The notes under the pieces were generated by a model. That model saw only the letters and a list, made by a program, of their open reading frames with translations. It made no database searches and was not told where the DNA came from. A stretch of DNA of 64,000 nucleotides from Chlorobaculum parvum NCIB 8327 (lineage in GTDB: Bacteria > Bacteroidota > Chlorobiia > Chlorobiales > Chlorobiaceae): the NCBI RefSeq assembly GCF_000020505.1, contig NC_011027.1, positions 294,001 to 358,000 of the forward strand, read 5' to 3'. The translations under genes and the position numbers were made by a program. This document shows positions 10,751-22,015 of this stretch, one piece after another; within the stretch, counting starts at the first letter, position 1, and each line of letters opens with the position of its first letter.

Positions 10751-11905
10751 TCAGACGAACACGCGCTTGACCCGTTTTGAGACCGCGCAGAGCAGCTCGT
10801 AGCTGATGGTTCCGGCAGCGATGGCCTGCTCTCCGGCTGATGGGCCGTCCCAGCCGAACAGCACGGCGGTATCGCCGACCTTGACCGAGCGGTTTTGGCC
10901 GAGATCGACCATCGTCTGATCCATCGTGACTGTGCCGACCTGGTGGTAACGGTTGCCGCCGATGGAGACCGTCGCCTTGTTTGAAAGCGTGCGGTGCACG
11001 CCGTCGGCGTAACCGGCCGAGAGCGTGGCGATGTTCGTGCTTGTGGGCGCGCTCCAGGTGCGGCTGTAGCTGATCGACGTTCCTGCCGTCACCTTCTTGA
11101 CGAACATCACCTTGCACTGGAACTGCATCACCGGTTTCACCGGTACGTTCGTCGGTTCGGCGTCCATCGGGTGGCAGCCGTAGAGCAAAATGCCGGGTCG
11201 CACCATGTCGAGCCGCGCGCTGGGCGTGGAGACGATGGCGCCACTGTTGGCCGCGTGTTTGAGCACGGTTCTGCCCGTGCGCTGTTCGTATCCACCGGTT
11301 ACATCGAGGAACTGTTCGAGCTGGCGGGCGGTGAAACCACCGGCCTTGTGGCCTTCGGCGAAGTGGGTGTAGATGCCGACGAGGTCGAGGTTCGGGCAGC
11401 GGTCGATCAGCTCCAGCAGGCTGTGCGCTTCTTCGGGCGTAACGCCGAGTCGGCCCATGCCGGTATCGATTTTCGCCTGTACTCGCAGCCGTCGGCCGCT
11501 CGCAGCAGCTTTGGCTTCAGCGGTCCGAACGGTTTCGTGGTCGCAGACGGTCATCTCGACATCGTGCTCAAGGTAGTGCTCGATGTGCCCGGCAAGCGGC
11601 GAGGCGAACGCCAGAATGCGCGACTCCGGCTGCATCCGGTGGCTTTGCTTCAGCTCGATCGCTTCGTGGATATTGGCCACACCGAACTCCCTGATTCCCT
11701 CTTCTTCGAGCGTCGCGGTGACTTGAGCTGCACCGTGCCCGTAGGCGTCAGCCTTGACGATGCCCATGATGCGGCAACGCGAGCCGCTGATGGCTTGGAT
11801 GCAGGCCAGGTTGTGCCGGAGATTTCCGAGCGAGATGAGTGCTTCGGAAAGGTTGGGGGCAGCCGGGTCAGCGGTGCTGGAATTTTGTCGGGAATCGGCG
11901 CTCAA
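10751..11905 (-). CDS. alr: Alanine racemase
   Basis: 384 residues. The PLP-lysine motif is MGIVKADAYGHGAAQV at about residues 49-64. The second catalytic tyrosine region is seen in SISYSRTWSAPTSTNIATLS, and GIYTHFAEGHK and RPGILLYGCHP are also typical. It makes D-alanine for peptidoglycan. No ATG fits. TTG at 11905 gives the complete N-terminal strand and is the likely start. A perfect 18-bp palindrome lies 41 bases upstream. Confidence 0.93.
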   Translation of the reverse strand: MSADSRQNSSTADPAAPNLSEALISLGNLRHNLACIQAISGSRCRIMGIVKADAYGHGAAQVTATLEEEGIREFGVANIHEAIELKQSHRMQPESRILAFASPLAGHIEHYLEHDVEMTVCDHETVRTAEAKAAASGRRLRVQAKIDTGMGRLGVTPEEAHSLLELIDRCPNLDLVGIYTHFAEGHKAGGFTARQLEQFLDVTGGYEQRTGRTVLKHAANSGAIVSTPSARLDMVRPGILLYGCHPMDAEPTNVPVKPVMQFQCKVMFVKKVTAGTSISYSRTWSAPTSTNIATLSAGYADGVHRTLSNKATVSIGGNRYHQVGTVTMDQTMVDLGQNRSVKVGDTAVLFGWDGPSAGEQAIAAGTISYELLCAVSKRVKRVFV

Positions 11906-12070: not shown

Positions 12071-13441
12071 ATGACCAACGATATTTTCGACATTTCGGGC
12101 AACACTCCGCTGGTTCCCATGAAACAGCTTACCCGCCAGAAAAAAGCGCGCTTCATGGCGAAGCTTGAATACATGAATCCCTGCATGTCGCACTATTGCC
12201 GGGTGTCGACCGCCATCGTCAAGGAGGCTGAAGAAGAGGGCCTCATCCATCCCGGCATGACGCTGGTGGACTGGACCTTCGGCACGAGCGGCATCGCGCT
12301 GGCTATGGTGGCCGTGAGCAAGGGCTACAAAGTGCTGCTCGCCGCGCCGGACAGCATCTGCCGGGAGAAGCAGGATGTGCTCCGTGCGCTTGGCGCTGAA
12401 CTGGTGCTCACCCCGTCCGAAGCTACGGGCGGCAACCTGCACGGGTGCGTAGCCGTGGCTGAAAACCTTGTCCGGACGATGCCGAACGCCTGGTTCGCCA
12501 ACATGTACGAAAATCCGGTCAGCCGTCAGGTGCACCAGAGCGGCACCGGCCCGGAAATTTTCAGCCAAAGCGACGAAAAGGTGACCCACGTGTTCGTGCC
12601 GATGGCTTCCGGTGCCATGATTTCCGGCATTGGTCGCTACTTCAAATCGGTCAATCCCGACGTGCAGATTATCGGCGTGGAGCCGGTCGGCTCGATCTAT
12701 CACGACCTGCACGAAGGCCGGAGCCAGGGGGGCGTGACCTCGTTTCAGCTTGAGGATATTGGCGCCGTTCAGCCTACCTCGTTCTGGGAACCCGAGGTGA
12801 TCGACCGGATTGTGCAGGTCAGCGACGCCGACGCCTTCAACTGCGGCCGTGAGCTGCTGCGCTCCGAGGGTGTGTTTGCCGGGGGCGCTTCCGGCGCGGC
12901 AATGTGCGCTGCGCTCCGCGAGGGCGAAAGCCTCGGCAGCGATTCGCTGGTGGTGGTGATGATGACCGATTTCGGCGGCTACGACCTGTCGCGCATGTAC
13001 AACGACGAGTGGATGCGCCGTCAGGGTTTCTACCGCAAGGCCAAGACCGCGCTCGACCAGATCACTGCCGACGACATCCTCCTGCGCAAGGCGCGCAAGG
13101 ATCTGATCTTCGCCCAGCCCGAGCAGACACTCGCGGACGTGTTCGAAATGATGAAGCAGAACGACGTTTCGCAGATGCCTATCGTCTCTTTCGGCGCACC
13201 CATCGGCAGCATCAGCGAAAACAAGATTCTCTCCATCCTGATCGAGAACGATTCGGCCATGAACGCCAAGGTGGTGGCCTTTATGGAGAAGCCTTTCCCG
13301 GTCTGCCAGCCGGACGCCACCATCAGCGAACTGTCCGGAAAACTTCAGACCAATGCGGCCGGTGTGCTTATCAGCCTTAGTGACGGAAGGCTGCAACTGA
13401 TTACCAAATCTGATCTTATCGATGCGCTGACGCACAAGTGA
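12071..13441 (+). CDS. Cystathionine beta-synthase-like protein lacking the PLP lysine, with CBS domain pair
   Basis: 456 residues with the full architecture of cystathionine beta-synthase: a fold-type II PLP-enzyme domain (1-315) and two C-terminal CBS domains (about 335-455). The N-terminal GNTPLV and the surrounding LEYMNP are kept, but the usual GGSVKDR is CMSHYCR, so the Schiff-base lysine is Tyr42. The TSGNTG loop is TFGTSG and the phosphate-binding GTGGT is ASGAM. Standard PLP catalysis therefore looks impossible. The reading frame is intact and long, so it is not a simple pseudogene. A binding, regulatory or adenylate-sensing role is inference. Confidence 0.85.
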   Translation: MTNDIFDISGNTPLVPMKQLTRQKKARFMAKLEYMNPCMSHYCRVSTAIVKEAEEEGLIHPGMTLVDWTFGTSGIALAMVAVSKGYKVLLAAPDSICREKQDVLRALGAELVLTPSEATGGNLHGCVAVAENLVRTMPNAWFANMYENPVSRQVHQSGTGPEIFSQSDEKVTHVFVPMASGAMISGIGRYFKSVNPDVQIIGVEPVGSIYHDLHEGRSQGGVTSFQLEDIGAVQPTSFWEPEVIDRIVQVSDADAFNCGRELLRSEGVFAGGASGAAMCAALREGESLGSDSLVVVMMTDFGGYDLSRMYNDEWMRRQGFYRKAKTALDQITADDILLRKARKDLIFAQPEQTLADVFEMMKQNDVSQMPIVSFGAPIGSISENKILSILIENDSAMNAKVVAFMEKPFPVCQPDATISELSGKLQTNAAGVLISLSDGRLQLITKSDLIDALTHK

Positions 13442-13708: not shown

Positions 13709-14266
13709 ATGAAGGTAGAGTCCAGAAAAAGGCAGCACATACTCGAAGGCAAGATCAAGCCTGGTTACTGTGATGGTTGCGGTTGCATTACCGAGCAGAC
13801 CTTTGTCGGTGAGTGGAAGCCCAGCGACAAGCCGAAAGAGGAGGATCCTCTTTTTGGAACGCCCGAAAAAAAGTCGAAGGAGAAGAAATCAGCAACTGAG
13901 CAGAATGCGTCGGCGGCCGAGAACCAGTACTGGATCCGTTGTTCGGCATGCAATCAGGTGCATCTTCTCAAAGAGTGGCAGATTCAGATCGACAGGGAAT
14001 TGAACCCCAGCGAGCTCAAGCCGGAAGATTGTCAGGTGTACACCCCTTAAGGCATCTATGCCCAGGGGGATGCAGTGTATCACAAATCCCTCGACGAAGT
14101 GGGGGTTGTTCGTGAAAAACAGGCCACCGGAAGCGGTGCGCATGTTATCATCGTGGAATTTTGCAAAAGCGGTCGGAAGCAGCTTCTGGAGAACGTGCAG
14201 CTCAAACAGGGCAAGAAAAGCTCCGAATCGCTGACGGATATTATCAAAAACAAGTTAAGACGCTAA
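13709..14266 (+). pseudogene. Zinc-ribbon / KOW-like protein gene interrupted by an in-frame TAA
   Basis: The first part (13709-14050, 113 residues) has two CxxC knuckles (YCDGCGC and RCSACNQ) around a charged linker. After a TAA at 14048-14050 the same frame stays open to 14266 and reads GIYAQGDAVYHKSLDEVGVV, then GAHVIIVEFCKSGRKQLLEN. That is a CarD/KOW-like pattern (GDxVxHxxxxxxGVV). The same frame and the lack of a good internal start (only GTG 14075) suggest one ancestral 185-codon gene with a nonsense change. Other options are two separately translated pieces, readthrough, or a sequence error. The first part may still be a functional small protein. It precedes rpsU. Confidence 0.6.
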
Positions 14267-14299: not shown

Positions 14300-14497
14300 T
14301 TGGTTAGTGTTCAGATGAACGAGAATGAATCGATTGACAAGCTGCTTAAGCGTTTCAAAAAGAAATACGAGAGAGCGGGTGTTCTGAAGGAGTTTCGTAA
14401 GAAAGCGTACTTCGTGAAGCCTTCGATCGACAACCGCCTGAAGCGTTCCAGATGCAAACGCCGTGCACAGCGTGCAAATGAAGAGCGTAACTCCTGA
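14300..14497 (+). CDS. rpsU: Small ribosomal subunit protein bS21
   Basis: 65 residues, basic, reading [19 protein letters not shown] then [15 protein letters not shown] and a Lys/Arg-rich tail, as in bacterial S21. The start is TTG at 14300, preceded at good distance by AGGGGG (14285-14290). An internal ATG at 14315 would remove five residues. A strong terminator follows. The protein joins the 30S subunit near the anti-Shine-Dalgarno sequence. Confidence 0.95.
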
Positions 14498-14520
14498 TCC
14501 CGCAGGCAATTAGTACTGAT

Positions 14521-14550
14521 AAGCAGCTCCTTCGGGGGCTGCTTTTTTTG
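14521..14550 (+). terminator. Rho-independent terminator of rpsU
   Basis: Stem of nine pairs (14522-14530 with 14535-14543), closed by a TTCG tetraloop and followed by seven T residues, 24 bases after the rpsU stop. Confidence 0.92.
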
Positions 14551-14651
14551 TTTAAGGAGAAATCCTTTTCTGTGAGTGGCAAAAAGAATGTCGTATTCAT
14601 TTTCAGGACAGATTCTGTCTCAAAAGCAAAAACCAGATACCTGTATTTGGT

Positions 14652-14721
14652 CATTCCCGCGCAAGCGGGAATCCATGCATTCAATCCGGTTTCTGGATTC
14701 CCGCTTGCGCGGGAATGACGG
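14652..14721. repeat. ATTCCC-type palindromic repeat pair
   Basis: Two copies of the hairpin ATTCCCGCGCAAGCGGGAAT, or its close complement, bracket about 30 bases, so the whole 70-base segment is a large inverted repeat. A sister element is at 23863-23935. The style is that of short dispersed repeats found in many bacteria (compare dRS3 repeats of Neisseria). It lies between rpsU and aroA. Confidence 0.8.
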
Positions 14722-14796
14722 ATAAAATCGAGACCTTGTTTTACTGTTGTACATTGTTTTTTAAGACAGCCTTTTTTCAACCAAAATCACGCATCC

Positions 14797-16101
14797 ATGA
14801 GCGTCTTTCAGGGCGAAGTTTCGAGCCTTCCGCCGGATAAATCGATATCGCATCGCGCAGCCATCATCGGTTCGCTTGCCGAAGGAACGACCGAAATCAC
14901 CAACTTTTCGGGCGGATTCGACAACCAATCGACCCTGTCGGTGCTGCGGGATCTCGGAATCTCTGTCCGGCAGGATGAAGTTCCCGCTGGTGACGGTCGG
15001 ATCGTCCGGCATGTCGTCATCGAATCGAACGGGCTCTGGAGCTTCCGCGAGCCGTCGGAGCCGCTGATGTGCAACAACTCCGGCAGCACGATGCGCATGA
15101 TGGCGGGCATCCTCGCCGCGCAGCCCTTCCGGAGCGAGCTGGTCGGCGACGCCTCGTTGATGAAGCGCCCGATGAAGCGCGTGGCCGATCCGCTGCGGAT
15201 GATGGGCGCGGACATTTCGCTCTCCGACGCCGGAACCGCGCCGGTGGTCATCAATGGCACGAAGGATTTGAAAACCATCGAGTACCTGCTTCCGGTTCCG
15301 TCGGCGCAGGTCAAGTCGCTCGTGGCGCTGGCCGCGCTGCACGCCGATGGCCAGTCGAAGATCATCGAGCCGATCCGCTCCCGCGACCACACCGAGCTGA
15401 TGCTGGGCCTCGAAACCATCGACCGCCCCGACGGCGTGCGCGAAATCATCATCGACGGGCGCAAGCCGATTGCGGCCAAACCGTTCAAGGTGCCCGCCGA
15501 TCCATCGGCAGCGTGCTTCATGATCGCCCTCGGCCTGCTCGGCGAGCGCTCGGAAATCGTGCTGCGCGACGTCTGCCTCAACCCGACGCGCGTGGCCTAC
15601 ATCGACGTGCTTCAGGAGGCGGGCGCGGGCCTCGGCATCGAGAACGTGCGCTCGGAGGGCGGCGAACCGGTGGGCGACATCGTCGTACGGAGCTGCTCTA
15701 GCCTCGCGCCGCTGCGCATCAGCGACCACGCGGTGGTGGCGGGCGTGATCGACGAACTGCCGATGCTCGCCGTGCTCTCGGCCTTCGCCACAGGGGAGTT
15801 CGAGCTGCACAACGCCACCGAGCTGCGCACCAAGGAGAGCGACCGCATCGAGGCGGTGGTGAGCAATCTGGAGCGCCTCGGCTTTGCGTGTGAGCAGTAC
15901 CCCGACGGTTTCGTGGTGAAGGGACGTCCGACGGTCAACCGCGAAGAAGCTGTCATCGAGTGTTTCGACGACCACCGCATCGCCATGAGCTTCGCCATCG
16001 CCGCCGAAGCCGCAGGCGCATCGCTGCGCCTCTCGGATCGCGAAGTGGCGGGCGTCTCGTTCCCGAACTTCTTCGCACTGATCGAGTCGTTGAAGCAGTA
16101 G
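14797..16101 (+). CDS. aroA: 3-Phosphoshikimate 1-carboxyvinyltransferase (EPSP synthase)
   Basis: 434 residues. Family blocks are [19 protein letters not shown] at the N-terminus, [16 protein letters not shown] (PEP and shikimate-3-phosphate binding) at about 90-105, and [17 protein letters not shown] and [15 protein letters not shown] in the C-terminal half. It catalyses the sixth shikimate-pathway step, from shikimate 3-phosphate and PEP. The start ATG 14797 leads straight into the conserved first strand. Confidence 0.96.
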
Positions 16102-16325: not shown

Positions 16326-16891
16326 AGGGGGAGGTCAAGAGGGAAATCCTGCGGCAAATATCCCGTATTTGTTGGCGTGTTGGTACGGGTTTTTTACATT
16401 GATAAAATGTGTTGGCTGAAGTACAAGGTAGTATCACCTTTCCCCACAGCAAATGCCTCACGCAATCTCTATCTCACGTATCACGACCCTCGAAAGCCGG
16501 GGCGAACAGTCACAACGGTTGTGCGCTCGCCGGAGCCGCTGGCGTTGGGATGTTTTGGATTTTGATGGGGGGATTGGAGCCAAAAAAAGTTTACAGCAGA
16601 TTAAAAGCCCATTCGATGATTTGTAATAACGGTAACAAGACCTCGCAGGGCAATAAAACGCTATTTTGTAGCGCTTATTCGTCCAATGCAGGATGTAAGG
16701 CGCAATAGAGTAGCGCAGATAAGCAAGTTACCTGCAAGGCTGAAAAACAAAACGAATAGAATAAAATGTTTGCCAGAATGAAAAATATAAAACCAACGAA
16801 CATTGCACACATTTGCAAATTGCACAAGCTGACGCTGAATTCAAAATTTGCAAAAGAGTGCAATTTCTTCTATCCCTCAAATTGATTGCGA
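16326..16891. other. Left non-coding part of the island
   Basis: 566 bases with no convincing gene. The first 240 bases have mixed composition; from about 16,600 the DNA is AT-rich like the island genes. The segment 16808-16868 resembles 20899-20957 just after the last island gene and is a candidate cassette boundary. The promoter for the operon should lie here, but I cannot point to one site with confidence. Confidence 0.5.
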
Positions 16892-17893
16892 ATGATAAAA
16901 CCTAAAGAAGAAATATACCAATACTACTTTTACTTTATCCAGGAAAGAATGAATATTTTCTGGAACAAGTATAATAACACTCAACCATGGACTAATGATG
17001 AAATACTTAGTGTTCATAAGTTTACGAACGTTTATCGTGCTATGGACAGAGTGAGTCAATACTTAATTCGGAATGTCATATATAACGAAAATTCGTTTTC
17101 AGATGAAGATGTATTGCTAAGGATAATTGTTTTTAAGATTTTCAACAAACCTGACACATGGGAATATTTAGAGAATAGAGTTGGAGTTATTACCGTTAAA
17201 AACTTTGATTTAAATCGGATTAATCAAGCATTATTAGAATTAAAACAAATTCAACCGATATTCAATAATGCTTATATGATGACAGGAACTCATTCTTTAT
17301 ATAATCACCTAAATTACAAGCATGAGAAATGGTTAGAGATGGTCAAGAATGAATTAATTGGAAAATCTATTTTAAAAAAAATCATCAACTCCAAGTCATT
17401 ATCAGGAGTTTATGAACTTCTGAGAAACTGTTCTTTCATTGGTGATTTTCTAGCCTATCAATATACAATTGACATGAACTATTCCTCAGTTATTGACTTT
17501 AGTGAAAATTCTTTTGTCAAGGCAGGTATTGGCGCAATTCGAGGAATAAAGAAATGTTTTGAACCTTTATCTAAGAAATACAACTTTGAAGATGCGATAA
17601 AATACACACAAAACAATTTTGAGAAATACCAAAATAAGTTTGGGTATACTGATTTTAGACCTCTTTTTGGAAGGATACCAACATTAATAGATTTACAAAA
17701 TTGTTTTTGTGAGACTGATAAATACTTGCGTGCCAAAATCCCGGAACTTCAAGTTGATAATAAACGCATTAAGCAAAAATATAAAGAAAGTCCAAAACCT
17801 CTAGAACTCTTCTTCCCTCCCAAATGGAATATTAACTCAAACATTTTGATACCATGTATACAGCCGAGTACACAGGAATCAACTCTTTTTTAG
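16892..17893 (+). CDS. Putative 5-hmdU DNA kinase-type helical-domain protein (thymine hypermodification family)
   Basis: 333 residues from ATG 16892 (an in-frame TTG at 16886 is an alternative). The segment FTNVYRAMDRVSQYLIRNVI followed by VLLRIIVFKIFNKPDTWEYL matches my memory of the helical domain of HMUDK/nucleotide-kinase proteins linked by comparative genomics to hypermodified thymine in phage DNA. No classic P-loop is visible, so whether this copy is a kinase or a glycosylase/pyrophosphorylase-like enzyme is open. First gene of a compact AT-rich operon. Its last 40 bases overlap the thymidylate-synthase-like gene. Confidence 0.65.
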   Translation: MIKPKEEIYQYYFYFIQERMNIFWNKYNNTQPWTNDEILSVHKFTNVYRAMDRVSQYLIRNVIYNENSFSDEDVLLRIIVFKIFNKPDTWEYLENRVGVITVKNFDLNRINQALLELKQIQPIFNNAYMMTGTHSLYNHLNYKHEKWLEMVKNELIGKSILKKIINSKSLSGVYELLRNCSFIGDFLAYQYTIDMNYSSVIDFSENSFVKAGIGAIRGIKKCFEPLSKKYNFEDAIKYTQNNFEKYQNKFGYTDFRPLFGRIPTLIDLQNCFCETDKYLRAKIPELQVDNKRIKQKYKESPKPLELFFPPKWNINSNILIPCIQPSTQESTLF

Positions 17894-18885
17894 TTGGTGC
17901 TTCGACTCTGCTTATAAAAGAGGGAGTCAAAAGAAAAACAAGAGGTAAGCTTTGCATTGAATTACCGAAACCTTTCATGTTTAAAATCACTAATCCAACG
18001 GCAAGACTGGTTACCGTACCTGAAAGAAGATGGAATCCTATTTTACCCTTTGCTGAATCATTGTGGTTAGCAACTGGGAAAAATGATTTAGAATTTATAG
18101 GTCATTATTTGAAAAACATGAAAAACTTCTCCGATGATGGTGAATTTTTACGAGGTGGTTACGGTCCAAGATTAAGAAAATACAATGGAATAAATGATGA
18201 TTATAAAATCAGGAATACTTATGATATAGATATTGCAAAACTAAATAAATCAGAAGTCGACCAATTTGGTTTCATTTGTAAAAGTTTTGAGAAGGATAAG
18301 TTTACAAGACAAGCAATTATTAATATCGGAGACCCGCCCAAAGATTGTTTTGACAAAAAGGGTAACTTAAAAATCACAAAGGATTTTCCTTGTACCAGAC
18401 TATTACATTTTCAGAAACAGCCAAAAGCAAACAAGCTTAATTTAACTGTTTATATGAGGTCAAATGACTTTGTATGGGGAGCAAGTGCAGTTAATATTTT
18501 CAACTTCACTTTTATGCTTGAATACTTCTCACAAATACTAGATTTAGAAATTGGGGAATACTATCATATAGCAAATAATTTCCATTATTATGAAGAATTT
18601 GAAGATTTAGTTCAGTCGATTTCTCGTACAAAAACTGTTGAAGAATCTAAATTTGAATACTCAAAATCATTTCACAATTTATCAGAGTTTGATGAGAAAA
18701 TAAATCTGCTTAAAAGTGAAGAAGAGAAGCTAAGGTCAGGCAAATATGCAGATTTAATTGATTTTAAAGACGACTTTTTTAATGATTGGTATAAAGCATT
18801 TTATGTTTTCAATACATATAAAAAAGTAACTTTTTCAAATCCAATATTAAATCAATTATTTTTAAAATATATGCCTTATGAATGA
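17854..18885 (+). CDS. Thymidylate synthase / pyrimidine hydroxymethylase-like protein
   Basis: 343 residues, longer than ThyA (about 264). Family features: YGPRLR at the YGxxxR position, the nucleophile cysteine in DFPCTRLLHFQ (about residue 184), VYMRSNDFVWGASAVNIFNF for the RSxDxxLGxPxN block, and the ending ANNFHYYEEF for DxHxY. The Asn in AVNIF corresponds to the residue that selects dUMP over dCMP in ThyA. It is likely to add methyl or hydroxymethyl to a uracil nucleotide. The operon partner upstream acts on hydroxymethyl-uracil in phage systems, which favours hydroxymethylation. Overlaps both neighbours. Confidence 0.82.
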   Translation: MYTAEYTGINSFLVGASTLLIKEGVKRKTRGKLCIELPKPFMFKITNPTARLVTVPERRWNPILPFAESLWLATGKNDLEFIGHYLKNMKNFSDDGEFLRGGYGPRLRKYNGINDDYKIRNTYDIDIAKLNKSEVDQFGFICKSFEKDKFTRQAIINIGDPPKDCFDKKGNLKITKDFPCTRLLHFQKQPKANKLNLTVYMRSNDFVWGASAVNIFNFTFMLEYFSQILDLEIGEYYHIANNFHYYEEFEDLVQSISRTKTVEESKFEYSKSFHNLSEFDEKINLLKSEEEKLRSGKYADLIDFKDDFFNDWYKAFYVFNTYKKVTFSNPILNQLFLKYMPYE

Positions 18886-19156
18886 AGAAAGTATTAAAAA
18901 AATCACAGATGATGTAATAGCTATTTTATTAAAGAAAAATGCGGATTACGGTGGTGCAAGTTTTGACTTAGGACTGAATGGGAATATGGTTCATCTTTGG
19001 GATAAAGTAAAACGTTACAAAAGTCTAATTGGCTGTGACAAAAAAGAGCCAAACTTTGAAAGTTTAGAAGATACTTTAAAAGATATTATTGGTTATGCAA
19101 TAATAGGCTTACACATTTTAGATGATGAAACTATAAAAGACAAAATCTATGGATAA
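18878..19156 (+). CDS. Nucleotide modification-associated domain 1 (DUF1599-type) protein
   Basis: 92 residues. The pattern LLKKNADYGGASFDLGLNGN, then HLWDKVKRYKSL and LEDTLKDIIGYAIIGLHIL, matches DUF1599/Nmad1, a small all-helical family related in style to MazG/dUTPase-type nucleotide pyrophosphatases and often found next to modified-base enzymes. A role in trimming or sanitising a modified nucleotide is inference. It overlaps the TS-like gene and the TIR gene by 8 bases each, so translation is coupled. Confidence 0.75.
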   Translation: MNEESIKKITDDVIAILLKKNADYGGASFDLGLNGNMVHLWDKVKRYKSLIGCDKKEPNFESLEDTLKDIIGYAIIGLHILDDETIKDKIYG

Positions 19157-19631
19157 GTCACATAATATCTTTATTAGCCATTATGGGAAAGATGATAAAC
19201 ATGTACAATCTTTAAAAGCAAGACTAAAAGGTCAAGGTTATAATATTCGGAATTTTTCTGTTGACAGCACTAAACATAAAGATGGTAGAACGCCGTCAAA
19301 ACCGGTAATTGAACGTCTCCTTCGTATGAGGATTAACTGGTCAAGTACATTTATTTGCTTGGTCGGCCCAAAAACACATACAAGAGCATGGGTTGATTAC
19401 GAAATTCAAAAAGCTGTAGAGAAAGGCAAACGAATTATTGGTGTTTATACGCATGGTAGTAAAGAAACAGCTCTGTTACCAAAGGGTTTAGAAAAAGTGG
19501 CATCAAATCTTATTGGGTGGAATTCAATCGATAAAATTGGTGAAATTATATCTGGAAAAAATTATCCAATCGAAAATCCAGATGGAAAGGTCATTACAGA
19601 CGCATTTGACAGACCAATAATAAGATGTTGA
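19149..19631 (+). CDS. TIR-domain protein, ThsB-like (DUF1863/MTH538 type)
   Basis: 160 residues. It begins with the TIR strand HNIFISHYGKDDKHVQSLKARL and continues with SSTFICLVGPKTHTRAWVDYEI, where Trp and Glu are in the place of the ThsB catalytic region, then KGKRIIGVYTHG. Such TIR proteins in Thoeris systems sense infection and make an NAD-derived signal. Here no ThsA (SIR2/SLOG) gene is adjacent, and the neighbours are nucleotide-modification genes. Whether it makes, cuts or senses a nucleotide is unknown. Confidence 0.8.
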   Translation: MDKSHNIFISHYGKDDKHVQSLKARLKGQGYNIRNFSVDSTKHKDGRTPSKPVIERLLRMRINWSSTFICLVGPKTHTRAWVDYEIQKAVEKGKRIIGVYTHGSKETALLPKGLEKVASNLIGWNSIDKIGEIISGKNYPIENPDGKVITDAFDRPIIRC

Positions 19632-19634
19632 CAA

Positions 19635-20258
19635 ATGAAGATTTATTCATATATGATTGACCACGATTTTGGGTTGGCACCAAATCCATTTGGACCATAT
19701 TGTACAATTGCTGTTTGTAAACCCAATATCAGGAAAAGCAAAAATCTTAAGATTGGTGATTGGATTATTGGAACAGGTTCAAAATCACTTGAAAAATCTT
19801 CAGGCATTAAGTGCGTTTCAAAACTTATCTATGCAATGAAGATAACTGAAATTATTAAATTAAATAAATATTTTCTAGACCCAAGATTTGAGTACAAAAA
19901 ACCAAATATGAATGGAACTTTGATGACTGTATTTGGTGATAATATCTATTTCCTTGATGAATCAGATAACTGGGCACAACTTGATTGTGCACATAGGAAT
20001 AAAGACGGAATTTATAATGCAGAGCATATAAGAAAAGATATTGGGGGTGAGAATGCCTTGATTTCAGACTTGTTCTATTATTTTGGTCAAAATGCACCTC
20101 AAATACCTGATTATTTAAGTGATGTATGTCATACTACGCAAGGCGTTAAATTTGTGAAACCTGATGAATTAGCAACACAATTTGTTGAATGGTTACAATC
20201 CAATTTTCAAAAAGGCTTGCAAGGTTTACCAATTAGTTGGACTAAATATGAAAAGTAA
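19635..20258 (+). CDS. Nucleotide modification-associated domain 2 (Nmad2-type) protein
   Basis: 207 residues. The N-terminus MKIYSYMIDHDFGLAPNPFG, with CTIAVCKPNIRK and KIGDWIIGTGSKS, matches the Nmad2 pattern as I remember it (conserved D-x-G-x-APNP, C-KP-IR, GDW-GTG). In other genomes this domain sits beside modified-base enzymes; its biochemistry is not established. It begins 3 bases after the TIR stop and overlaps the following gene by 11 bases. Confidence 0.72.
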   Translation: MKIYSYMIDHDFGLAPNPFGPYCTIAVCKPNIRKSKNLKIGDWIIGTGSKSLEKSSGIKCVSKLIYAMKITEIIKLNKYFLDPRFEYKKPNMNGTLMTVFGDNIYFLDESDNWAQLDCAHRNKDGIYNAEHIRKDIGGENALISDLFYYFGQNAPQIPDYLSDVCHTTQGVKFVKPDELATQFVEWLQSNFQKGLQGLPISWTKYEK

Positions 20259-20880
20259 AAACGATATGGATTTATTTAAACTTTACTTTGACGAAAATTT
20301 CAATCTTATTGTGCATATTTCAATATGGCTTGTTGTTTTTGTGATTGTTATATTGCTAGTTTATTTTCTAGTAATAAAAAAAACATACAGGTATAGCCTA
20401 GTAAAACTTGACATTAAGCTGGGCAATGTTGGTTCTGCAGAATTCAGACCTAATAAAACAGATTTACAAATAGCCCATAAAATTTGGACAGAATTAATTA
20501 CAAGAAAAGCGGCAATACCAATAGACAAAGAAAATGATATAATTGAAGAAATATATGATTCATGGTATGCACTTTTTCAAAAAGTTAGAGAATTTATTAG
20601 CGAAGTTCCAGCAGAGTTAATTCGTAAAAATAAAAGCACAAAAGAGATTGTTCGGATAGCAACTCAAACGCTAAATGAAGGTTTACGTCCCCATCTTACA
20701 ATGTGGCAAGCCAGATTTCGAACCTGGAGTTCTGCCAAGAAAGAAAAAGCCATGGATAAAACTCCTCAAGAATTCCAAAAAGAATATCCTCAATATAAGG
20801 ACTTAATTGATGATTTAATGAAAGTAAACACACAGTTAATACAATATGCACAAGAACTGAAGAGGATAATAGAAAAATAA
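20248..20880 (+). CDS. Single-span membrane protein of the island operon
   Basis: 210 residues, not recognised. A strongly hydrophobic segment at about residues 20-42 (ISIWLVVFVIVILLVYFLVI) is followed by basic residues. The cytoplasmic part is mostly helical and charged (IAHKIWTELITRKA; IVRIATQTLNEGLRPHLTMW; final helix to EELKRIIEK-like end). The ATG at 20248 overlaps the previous gene by 11 bases; ATG 20266 is possible. As the last gene of the operon it could be an effector or anchor at the inner membrane. That is inference. Confidence 0.7.
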   Translation: MKSKNDMDLFKLYFDENFNLIVHISIWLVVFVIVILLVYFLVIKKTYRYSLVKLDIKLGNVGSAEFRPNKTDLQIAHKIWTELITRKAAIPIDKENDIIEEIYDSWYALFQKVREFISEVPAELIRKNKSTKEIVRIATQTLNEGLRPHLTMWQARFRTWSSAKKEKAMDKTPQEFQKEYPQYKDLIDDLMKVNTQLIQYAQELKRIIEK

Positions 20881-21200: not shown

Positions 21201-21245
21201 AGCAAACCCCTAACTAGTTCGCACCGGTTGGGGGTTTCTCGTTTT
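21201..21245 (-). terminator. Hairpin at the right island boundary
   Basis: The arms AAACCCCTAACTAGT and ACCGGTTGGGGGTTT are separated by TCGC. It sits directly after the stop of the minus-strand alpha/beta hydrolase gene and may terminate it. In sequence and orientation it resembles the left boundary hairpin at 16283-16325 (shared core CCGGTTGGGG). Confidence 0.55.
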
Positions 21246-22015
21246 TACAAACTCCGCAAATGCTCCAGCAATATGCCGTTAAACATCGCGGGTTGTTCGA
21301 GGTTCGACAAGTGTCCCGCGTCCGGGATCAGTTCGAGCTTTGAGCCGGGGATGAGGGCGTGCATTTCGGCGGCGGTTTCGGGCGGAGTGACCTTGTCGTC
21401 CATGCCGCAGACGATCAACGTCGGGCAGGTGATTTCGTTCAGCAGCTCGGTCGAGTCCTCGCGCTCGGCGATGGCTCGCATCGCTTCGCTGATCGCTTCC
21501 GGGGTCTGGCGAATGATACCCTGCCGCGTTTTTTCCACCAGCGGCTCGTTCGATTCGTAGGTCTCCGGCGCGAAGAAGTTTGGCACCATCCGCGCGGCGG
21601 CCTCTTCGGCTCCTTTTTCCATCACCACCGTCCGGAACTCCTGCCGCGCGGCCAGCGCTTCGGGTGCATCGGCGTTGGCGCGTGTGTCGCAGAACACCAG
21701 CGAATCGGTCAGTTCGGGGTAGAGGCGGTAAAACGCCATCGCCTGGTAGCCGCCCATCGAGAGGCCGACGACGGTAGCGCTGCTCCAGCCAAGCGCCCGG
21801 ATCAGCCTCGCCAGATCGTGCGCATAATCGTCCATGCTCCAGCCGGGTCTTGACGGTGAGGTGTCAAATCCATAGACGTACGGCGCAATCACCCGGTAGC
21901 CCGATTCGGCCAGCGGAGCGAGCTGGTGCTCCCACATGTCTGCTGAAACCGGGAATGCGTGCAGCAGCAAGACGTTACCGGCATCACCGCCGGTTGAGCC
22001 TGTGAAGGTCAGCAT
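21245..22015 (-). CDS. Alpha/beta-fold hydrolase
   Basis: 256 residues. The nucleophile elbow is GLSMGGY (Ser about residue 97), the oxyanion-hole region is LLLHAFPVSADMW, the acid is in CGMDDKVTPPE and the catalytic His is in IPDAGHLSNLEQP. It resembles the 3-oxoadipate enol-lactonase/arylesterase branch, but the substrate is not predictable. It is 3 bases downstream of the YtxH-type gene. Confidence 0.88.
   Translation of the reverse strand: MLTFTGSTGGDAGNVLLLHAFPVSADMWEHQLAPLAESGYRVIAPYVYGFDTSPSRPGWSMDDYAHDLARLIRALGWSSATVVGLSMGGYQAMAFYRLYPELTDSLVFCDTRANADAPEALAARQEFRTVVMEKGAEEAAARMVPNFFAPETYESNEPLVEKTRQGIIRQTPEAISEAMRAIAEREDSTELLNEITCPTLIVCGMDDKVTPPETAAEMHALIPGSKLELIPDAGHLSNLEQPAMFNGILLEHLRSL

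Follow-up and report, generated by a model that had tools for sequence, protein, structure and literature searches.

A homologue of cystathionine beta-synthase (CBS) in Chlorobaculum parvum NCIB 8327 and its relatives in the family Chlorobiaceae has lost its PLP site throughout the family, has since been kept under strong purifying selection, and, to judge from its pattern of sequence conservation, probably gave up catalysis for a regulatory role. The best explanation overall, which is held here with moderate confidence, is that a CBS was turned into a PLP-free pseudoenzyme that acts via a ligand-gated Bateman module. The gene lies in the window, by which is meant the whole 64,000-nucleotide stretch of DNA that was analysed, from a genome that consists of a single contig of 2,289,249 bases. 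Its features are as follows:

12071-13441, + strand: lysine-less CBS homologue, open reading frame (ORF) from ATG to TGA, 456 aa
12071-13030, + strand: PALP (former catalytic) domain, residues 1-320, Pfam PF00291
12176-12202, + strand: NPCMSHYCR (residues 36-44), PLP-lysine motif; Tyr42 codon TAT at 12194-12196; Lys in 0 of 63 orthologues
12275-12292, + strand: TFGTSG (residues 69-74), substrate/Asn loop; TSGNTG or TAGNTG in the enzyme
12605-12619, + strand: ASGAM (residues 179-183), former PLP-phosphate loop GTGGT
12887-12889, + strand: Ala273, where human CBS has Ser349 in contact with the PLP ring nitrogen; Ser kept in 2 of 63
13076-13438, + strand: Bateman module, CBS1 (residues 336-393) plus CBS2 (residues 394-456), the most constrained part of the protein
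13172-13174, + strand: Gln368, matched by eye with SAM-site Gln445 of human CBS; present in 63 of 63
13403-13414, + strand: T445-K-S-D448, CBS-motif nucleotide signature (human Thr535/Asp538)

The PALP fold and the C-terminal Bateman module are both recognized by Pfam, by the predicted fold and by structure alignment. Within the 456-aa protein the Pfam PALP match (206.7 bits) spans residues 7-300 and the CBS match scores 49.6 bits; two tandem CBS motifs are present, and the second, although it scores 21.1 bits alone against a Pfam cut-off of 24, can be aligned over its full length with solved CBS structures. Among proteins of known structure the best relatives are full-length cystathionine beta-synthases, M. 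tuberculosis Rv1077 foremost. An AlphaFold2 model built from 51 Chlorobiaceae sequences (mean pLDDT 75, pTM 0.68) resembles CBS structures throughout, the Bateman half being of low confidence and this part of the resemblance uncertain, and the predicted PALP half superimposes on Legionella CBS 6vju with a TM score of 0.93 by target length and an rmsd of 2.4. The description given by the sequence-only reading, of a full-length CBS homologue with its frame, fold motifs and both CBS domains intact, is thus confirmed by the ORF, by Pfam and by the alignment to solved structures. The protein scores 335 bits against the cystathionine beta-synthase model TIGR01137, under the cut-off of 510, but the cut-off is uninformative as a discriminator because an intact CBS of the sister families also falls below it (470 bits). 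Identity as CysK was rejected, as the match to TIGR01139 is only 237 bits versus a cut-off of 351 and the Schiff-base lysine is absent. Scans for promoters, terminators and inverted repeats upstream of the ORF gave nothing above expectation.

Loss of the PLP site

The residues that hold PLP in human CBS are Lys119, Asn149, Ser349 and those of the loop Gly256-Thr260 (PMC7277093). In the C. parvum protein, Tyr42 stands in place of Lys119, Thr72 of Asn149 and Ala273 of Ser349, and the loop reads Ala-Ser-Gly-Ala-Met (residues 179-183); the Schiff-base lysine, the GTGGT phosphate loop and the ring-nitrogen Ser are all missing. The sequence-only reading had reported three changed cofactor motifs (NPGGSVKDR to NPCMSHYCR, TSGNTG to TFGTSG, and GTGGT to ASGAM) and the replacement of the PLP lysine by tyrosine; both observations stand, and Ala273 is a fourth changed site beyond those three. 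The same losses are fixed throughout the family: among 63 distinct full-length Chlorobiaceae orthologues the former lysine position holds Tyr in 62, Asp in one (L057, assembly A14_bin-2382) and Lys in none, which disposes of a recent lesion or sequence error confined to this genome. The lysine is present in all 27 comparison orthologues, drawn from sister families and other Bacteroidota, a contrast far beyond chance, and all eight PLP-contact positions are invariant in that set. In the 63 Chlorobiaceae sequences the contacts are retained as follows: Thr180 in none, Gly182 in one, Ser273 in two, Thr183 in three, Gly179 in five, Asn72 in 42 and Gly181 in 56, such that six of the eight published contacts are replaced in nearly all; Thr73 is Ser in every one. 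At 131 PALP sites conserved among the enzymes, changes affect six of eight PLP contacts versus 35 of 123 others (one-sided Fisher p = 0.012). Judged by the contacts replaced, PLP anchoring is abolished. A wider set of pocket positions is bulkier and more hydrophobic, a tendency that is illustrative only, the positions having been picked with the changes in view; the former PLP cavity may be filled by Tyr42, Phe70, Met145, Met183 and Phe301.

That the protein is still a PLP enzyme by way of a different lysine is highly improbable. Lys31, Lys87 and Lys100 are each conserved in at least 95% of the Chlorobiaceae orthologues, but active homologues also have lysine at these positions (Lys/Arg at 87), where it is not the Schiff-base residue, and no lysine occurs within residues 36-46 in any of the 63 sequences. 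Lys192 is present in 59 of 63. The prospect of PLP binding through another lysine, which the sequence-only reading had named as a ground for abandoning its claim, fails at the level of sequence, as the PALP domain has acquired no new conserved lysine. The protein is very probably both non-catalytic and PLP-free; binding of some small molecule in the old pocket is possible, as the substrate loop has partly retained its Asn72 and Thr/Ser.

Origin of the gene and the cysteine pathway

The neighbours of the gene that serve to trace its origin are:

10751-11905, - strand: alanine racemase, divergent neighbour, in Chlorobiaceae only
13709-14050, + strand: 113-aa protein with CxxCxC and CxxC, marker of the shared locus
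14797-16101, + strand: aroA (EPSP synthase), second synteny marker

The 113-aa protein has no Pfam match, and its gene is found conserved across the order's four families, in most cases adjoining aroA. An intact orthologue of the lysine-less protein, 42-45% identical to it, is found in 10 genomes of two other families of the order (L097-L106), with all of its motifs (GGSIKDR, TAGNTG, GTGGT and GGSSGA) unimpaired, and in most of these genomes it adjoins the same 113-aa gene and aroA. In the tree the lysine-less proteins and the intact sister-family CBS are sister groups (100% bootstrap), and the stem of the lysine-less clade, at 0.83 substitutions per site, is longer than any other internal branch of the ingroup. 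Because the sister families keep a full-length positional orthologue with intact motifs, and because of this tree, the active site is concluded to have been lost once, on the Chlorobiaceae stem, from a vertically inherited gene. With clear orthology to an enzyme and its essential residues lost, the protein would be a CBS-derived pseudoenzyme, the activity of the sister proteins being predicted from their motifs. The CBS gene is absent from two genomes of one family of the order, which appears to be Chloroherpeton-like, and the 113-aa neighbour is kept there; a functional pairing of the two genes was rejected on this ground. One Chlorobiaceae assembly with 4% contamination contains a second, lysine-containing CBS (L107, G065 contig 44) that is only 31% identical and is directly followed by a PF01053 gene; it is either a contaminant or a transferred CBS/CGL pair.

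A true CysK is encoded elsewhere in the window's genome (448 bits versus the TIGR01139 cut-off of 351). CysK-type genes are present in all Chlorobiaceae except two incomplete assemblies, CysE is strongly matched in nearly all assemblies of the family, and both Chloroherpeton-like genomes have CysK-type genes as well as strong CysE matches. In 8 of the 10 sister genomes the only CysK-type match is the CBS gene itself, and a clear CysE match occurs in one sister genome only; a CysK-like protein accompanies an intact CBS in two sister genomes, so that the CysK rule is not strict. The sister families probably rely on CBS for cysteine, as far as gene content indicates. Because CysE and CysK are present in the Chlorobiaceae and mostly absent from the sisters with active CBS, the enzyme is considered to have become dispensable in the Chlorobiaceae. 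The order of events may have been a gain of CysE/CysK in the Chlorobiaceae and Chloroherpeton-like bacteria, of which the latter deleted CBS and the former kept it in emptied form. Loss of cystathionine gamma-lyase-type enzymes was rejected as a cause, since PF01053 is found in 98 of 98 genomes of the class. CysK directly adjoins a PF01053 gene in the window's genome (contig 1, 718743-720818, - strand).

Shift of constraint to the Bateman module

The gene was found in 78 of 86 Chlorobiaceae assemblies, and the eight without a match offer a point in favour of a decaying gene or a sequencing error, an explanation that nevertheless has almost no chance of being correct. All eight also lack the adjacent 113-aa gene, and because this small gene is missing too the locus is considered to be unassembled in them; all five single-contig Chlorobiaceae genomes carry the CBS gene. 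The ORF is open in all full-length orthologues, and the median omega over 84 close pairs, obtained by a simple Nei-Gojobori count of codon changes, is 0.068 for the whole gene, 0.085 for PALP and 0.025 for Bateman. A lesion, decay or sequencing error is ruled out by these observations together with the 0 of 63 lysines, and the codon changes indicate that the gene is under long-term strong purifying selection after loss of its active site.

The distribution of constraint between the domains is inverted relative to the enzymes. Identity between two Chlorobiaceae genera is 0.63 for PALP versus 0.82 for Bateman, whereas the relation is reversed within the sisters (0.77 versus 0.65) and the corresponding values among other Bacteroidota are 0.64 and 0.36; in Chlorobiaceae, 64% of Bateman columns and 32% of PALP columns are conserved at 97% or more. 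On a fixed tree the PALP stem length is 0.97 for Chlorobiaceae versus 0.07 for the sister clade, and the crown depths of PALP and Bateman are 0.45 and 0.15 in Chlorobiaceae and 0.30 and 0.52 in the sisters, with the burst on the stem mainly confined to PALP. By these measures of sequence change the Bateman module is the most conserved part and the former catalytic domain evolves faster, the functional centre now being the sensor and no longer the active site. The selection for a non-catalytic role that had been proposed from the sequence alone is strongly supported by the family-wide fixation of the losses, by an omega of about 0.07 and by this displacement of constraint. An altered enzyme, in which the pocket holds PLP non-covalently or holds another ligand and a different reaction is catalysed, could draw on the kept loop T/S-x-G-x-S-G-I, on Asn72 in 42 of 63 and on the PALP omega, which still denotes purifying selection; it is quite improbable, as the lysine, the phosphate loop and the ring-nitrogen Ser are all gone, the pocket positions (chosen with the changes in view) are bulkier and more hydrophobic, and PALP is the least conserved part of the protein.

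The nucleotide signature in CBS2 is conserved in Chlorobiaceae orthologues (Thr445 in 57 of 63 and Asp448 in 63 of 63) and is absent from CBS1, where its Asp is lacking. Gln368, Thr445 and Asp448 are presumed to correspond to human Gln445, Thr535 and Asp538, from a match made by eye to the known human sequence. The SAM site of human CBS includes Gln445, Thr535 and Asp538, and the Bateman module of M. tuberculosis CBS binds SAM and links dimers into tetramers (PMC9232105). The earlier suggestion of adenylate sensing through the CBS pair thereby gains indirect support from the retained ligand-site residues and the high conservation of the module. As a counterpoint, the Bateman module could be conserved purely for tetramer packing. 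In one alternative, the protein is a structural or heteromeric subunit: its pseudo-PALP domain forms a pair with CysK or another PALP enzyme, or caps it, and the Bateman module serves assembly with no ligand sensing. The intact predicted fold, the tetramer of M. tuberculosis CBS built by Bateman pairs (PMC9232105) and the presence of CysK in nearly all Chlorobiaceae genomes searched are in keeping with it, but Gln368, Thr445 and Asp448 of the nucleotide signature are kept, and not an interface alone, there is no genomic linkage to CysK, and the readable CysE tails lack the terminal Ile that docks into CysK; this alternative is considered unlikely. The CysE C-termini were read at 30 loci, most of them plausibly, several of the picked frames being clearly not CysE; since no plausible CysE read ends in Ile, docking of the CysE tail as in CysK was rejected. 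Action through the Bateman module is reasonably likely, and a ligand of the adenosyl type is an evenly balanced proposition.

Proposed function and related systems

In the preferred reading, a vertically inherited CBS would have become a pseudoenzyme on the Chlorobiaceae stem with its fold kept; the Bateman pair would bind SAM or AMP/ATP as an adenosyl ligand and, through its conformation or its state of oligomerization, would gate the binding of a partner or the protein's own assembly, and the PLP-free PALP dimer would serve as a scaffold or docking part. A PALP scaffold with a ligand-gated Bateman module is proposed because the SAM-site residues are kept, the M. tuberculosis module binds SAM, and adaptors of the AcuB type are known. 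The likely setting would be control of sulfur amino-acid metabolism, with cysteine synthesis taken over by CysE and CysK, although a target in cysteine or methionine metabolism is suggested with considerable doubt. The fuller proposition, that CBS became a dedicated signal-gated regulator with a PLP-emptied catalytic half and the allosteric half as its functional core, tying SAM or energy state to sulfide assimilation, is tentative and has somewhat less than an even chance of being correct.

The protein is like Rv1077 (PDB 7xnz), human CBS and the TIGR01137 family in domain order, fold, length and most SAM-site residues, but unlike Rv1077 and human CBS it is without the PLP lysine, phosphate loop and ring-nitrogen Ser; the intact sister-family CBS is orthologous and shares its neighbours, but keeps all catalytic motifs and conserves PALP more than Bateman. 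AcuB of B. subtilis, a stand-alone CBS-domain adaptor, is an Ap4A-gated inhibitor of AcuC (PMC13039410). Control of a partner via a ligand-binding CBS pair, shown for AcuB, is what is proposed here, but AcuB docks by an ACT domain, whereas the attached domain here is a dead PALP enzyme. In C. elegans the cysteine-synthase homologue CYSL-1 binds EGL-9 and thereby acts in signalling (Ma et al. 2012, as cited in PMC7142082). It is likewise a PALP-family protein engaged in signalling in a sulfide context, but is an animal protein of unrelated origin. CYSL-1 is not known to have a Bateman module. Rv3778c, a lysine-less relative of PLP enzymes, has lost its PLP lysine and was judged non-catalytic (PMC12910592); it differs in being kin to cysteine desulfurases and in having no CBS domains. 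A search of the open-access literature, with subscription journals outside its scope, found no paper on the Chlorobiaceae protein or on such a fold-type-II pseudoenzyme.

Pseudoenzymes are usually recognized from single lost residues. Here one bacterial order displays the intact positional orthologue, the emptied one, the CysE/CysK pathway that likely displaced it and the reversal of domain constraint, and because all of this is visible within one order the step from enzyme to regulator is directly testable. Automatic labels of CBS or cysteine synthase for the Chlorobiaceae gene would mislead on its function, with consequences for metabolic models of how green sulfur bacteria make their sulfur amino acids.

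Elsewhere in the window, an ORF at 14355-14780 (- strand) bears a repeat peptide that includes WIPACAGMT, as in dispersed intergenic repeats. Downstream of aroA is an AT-rich island (16886-20880, + strand; approximately 31% GC versus 58%) that contains a 5-hydroxymethyl-dU DNA kinase helical domain, a thymidylate-synthase homologue, a ThsB-like TIR protein and an Nmad2 protein, and these predicted products suggest a cluster for DNA base modification and defence. Among the relatives, many of the Chlorobium type and some of the Chlorobaculum type have aroA directly followed by the gene found here at 21245-22015.
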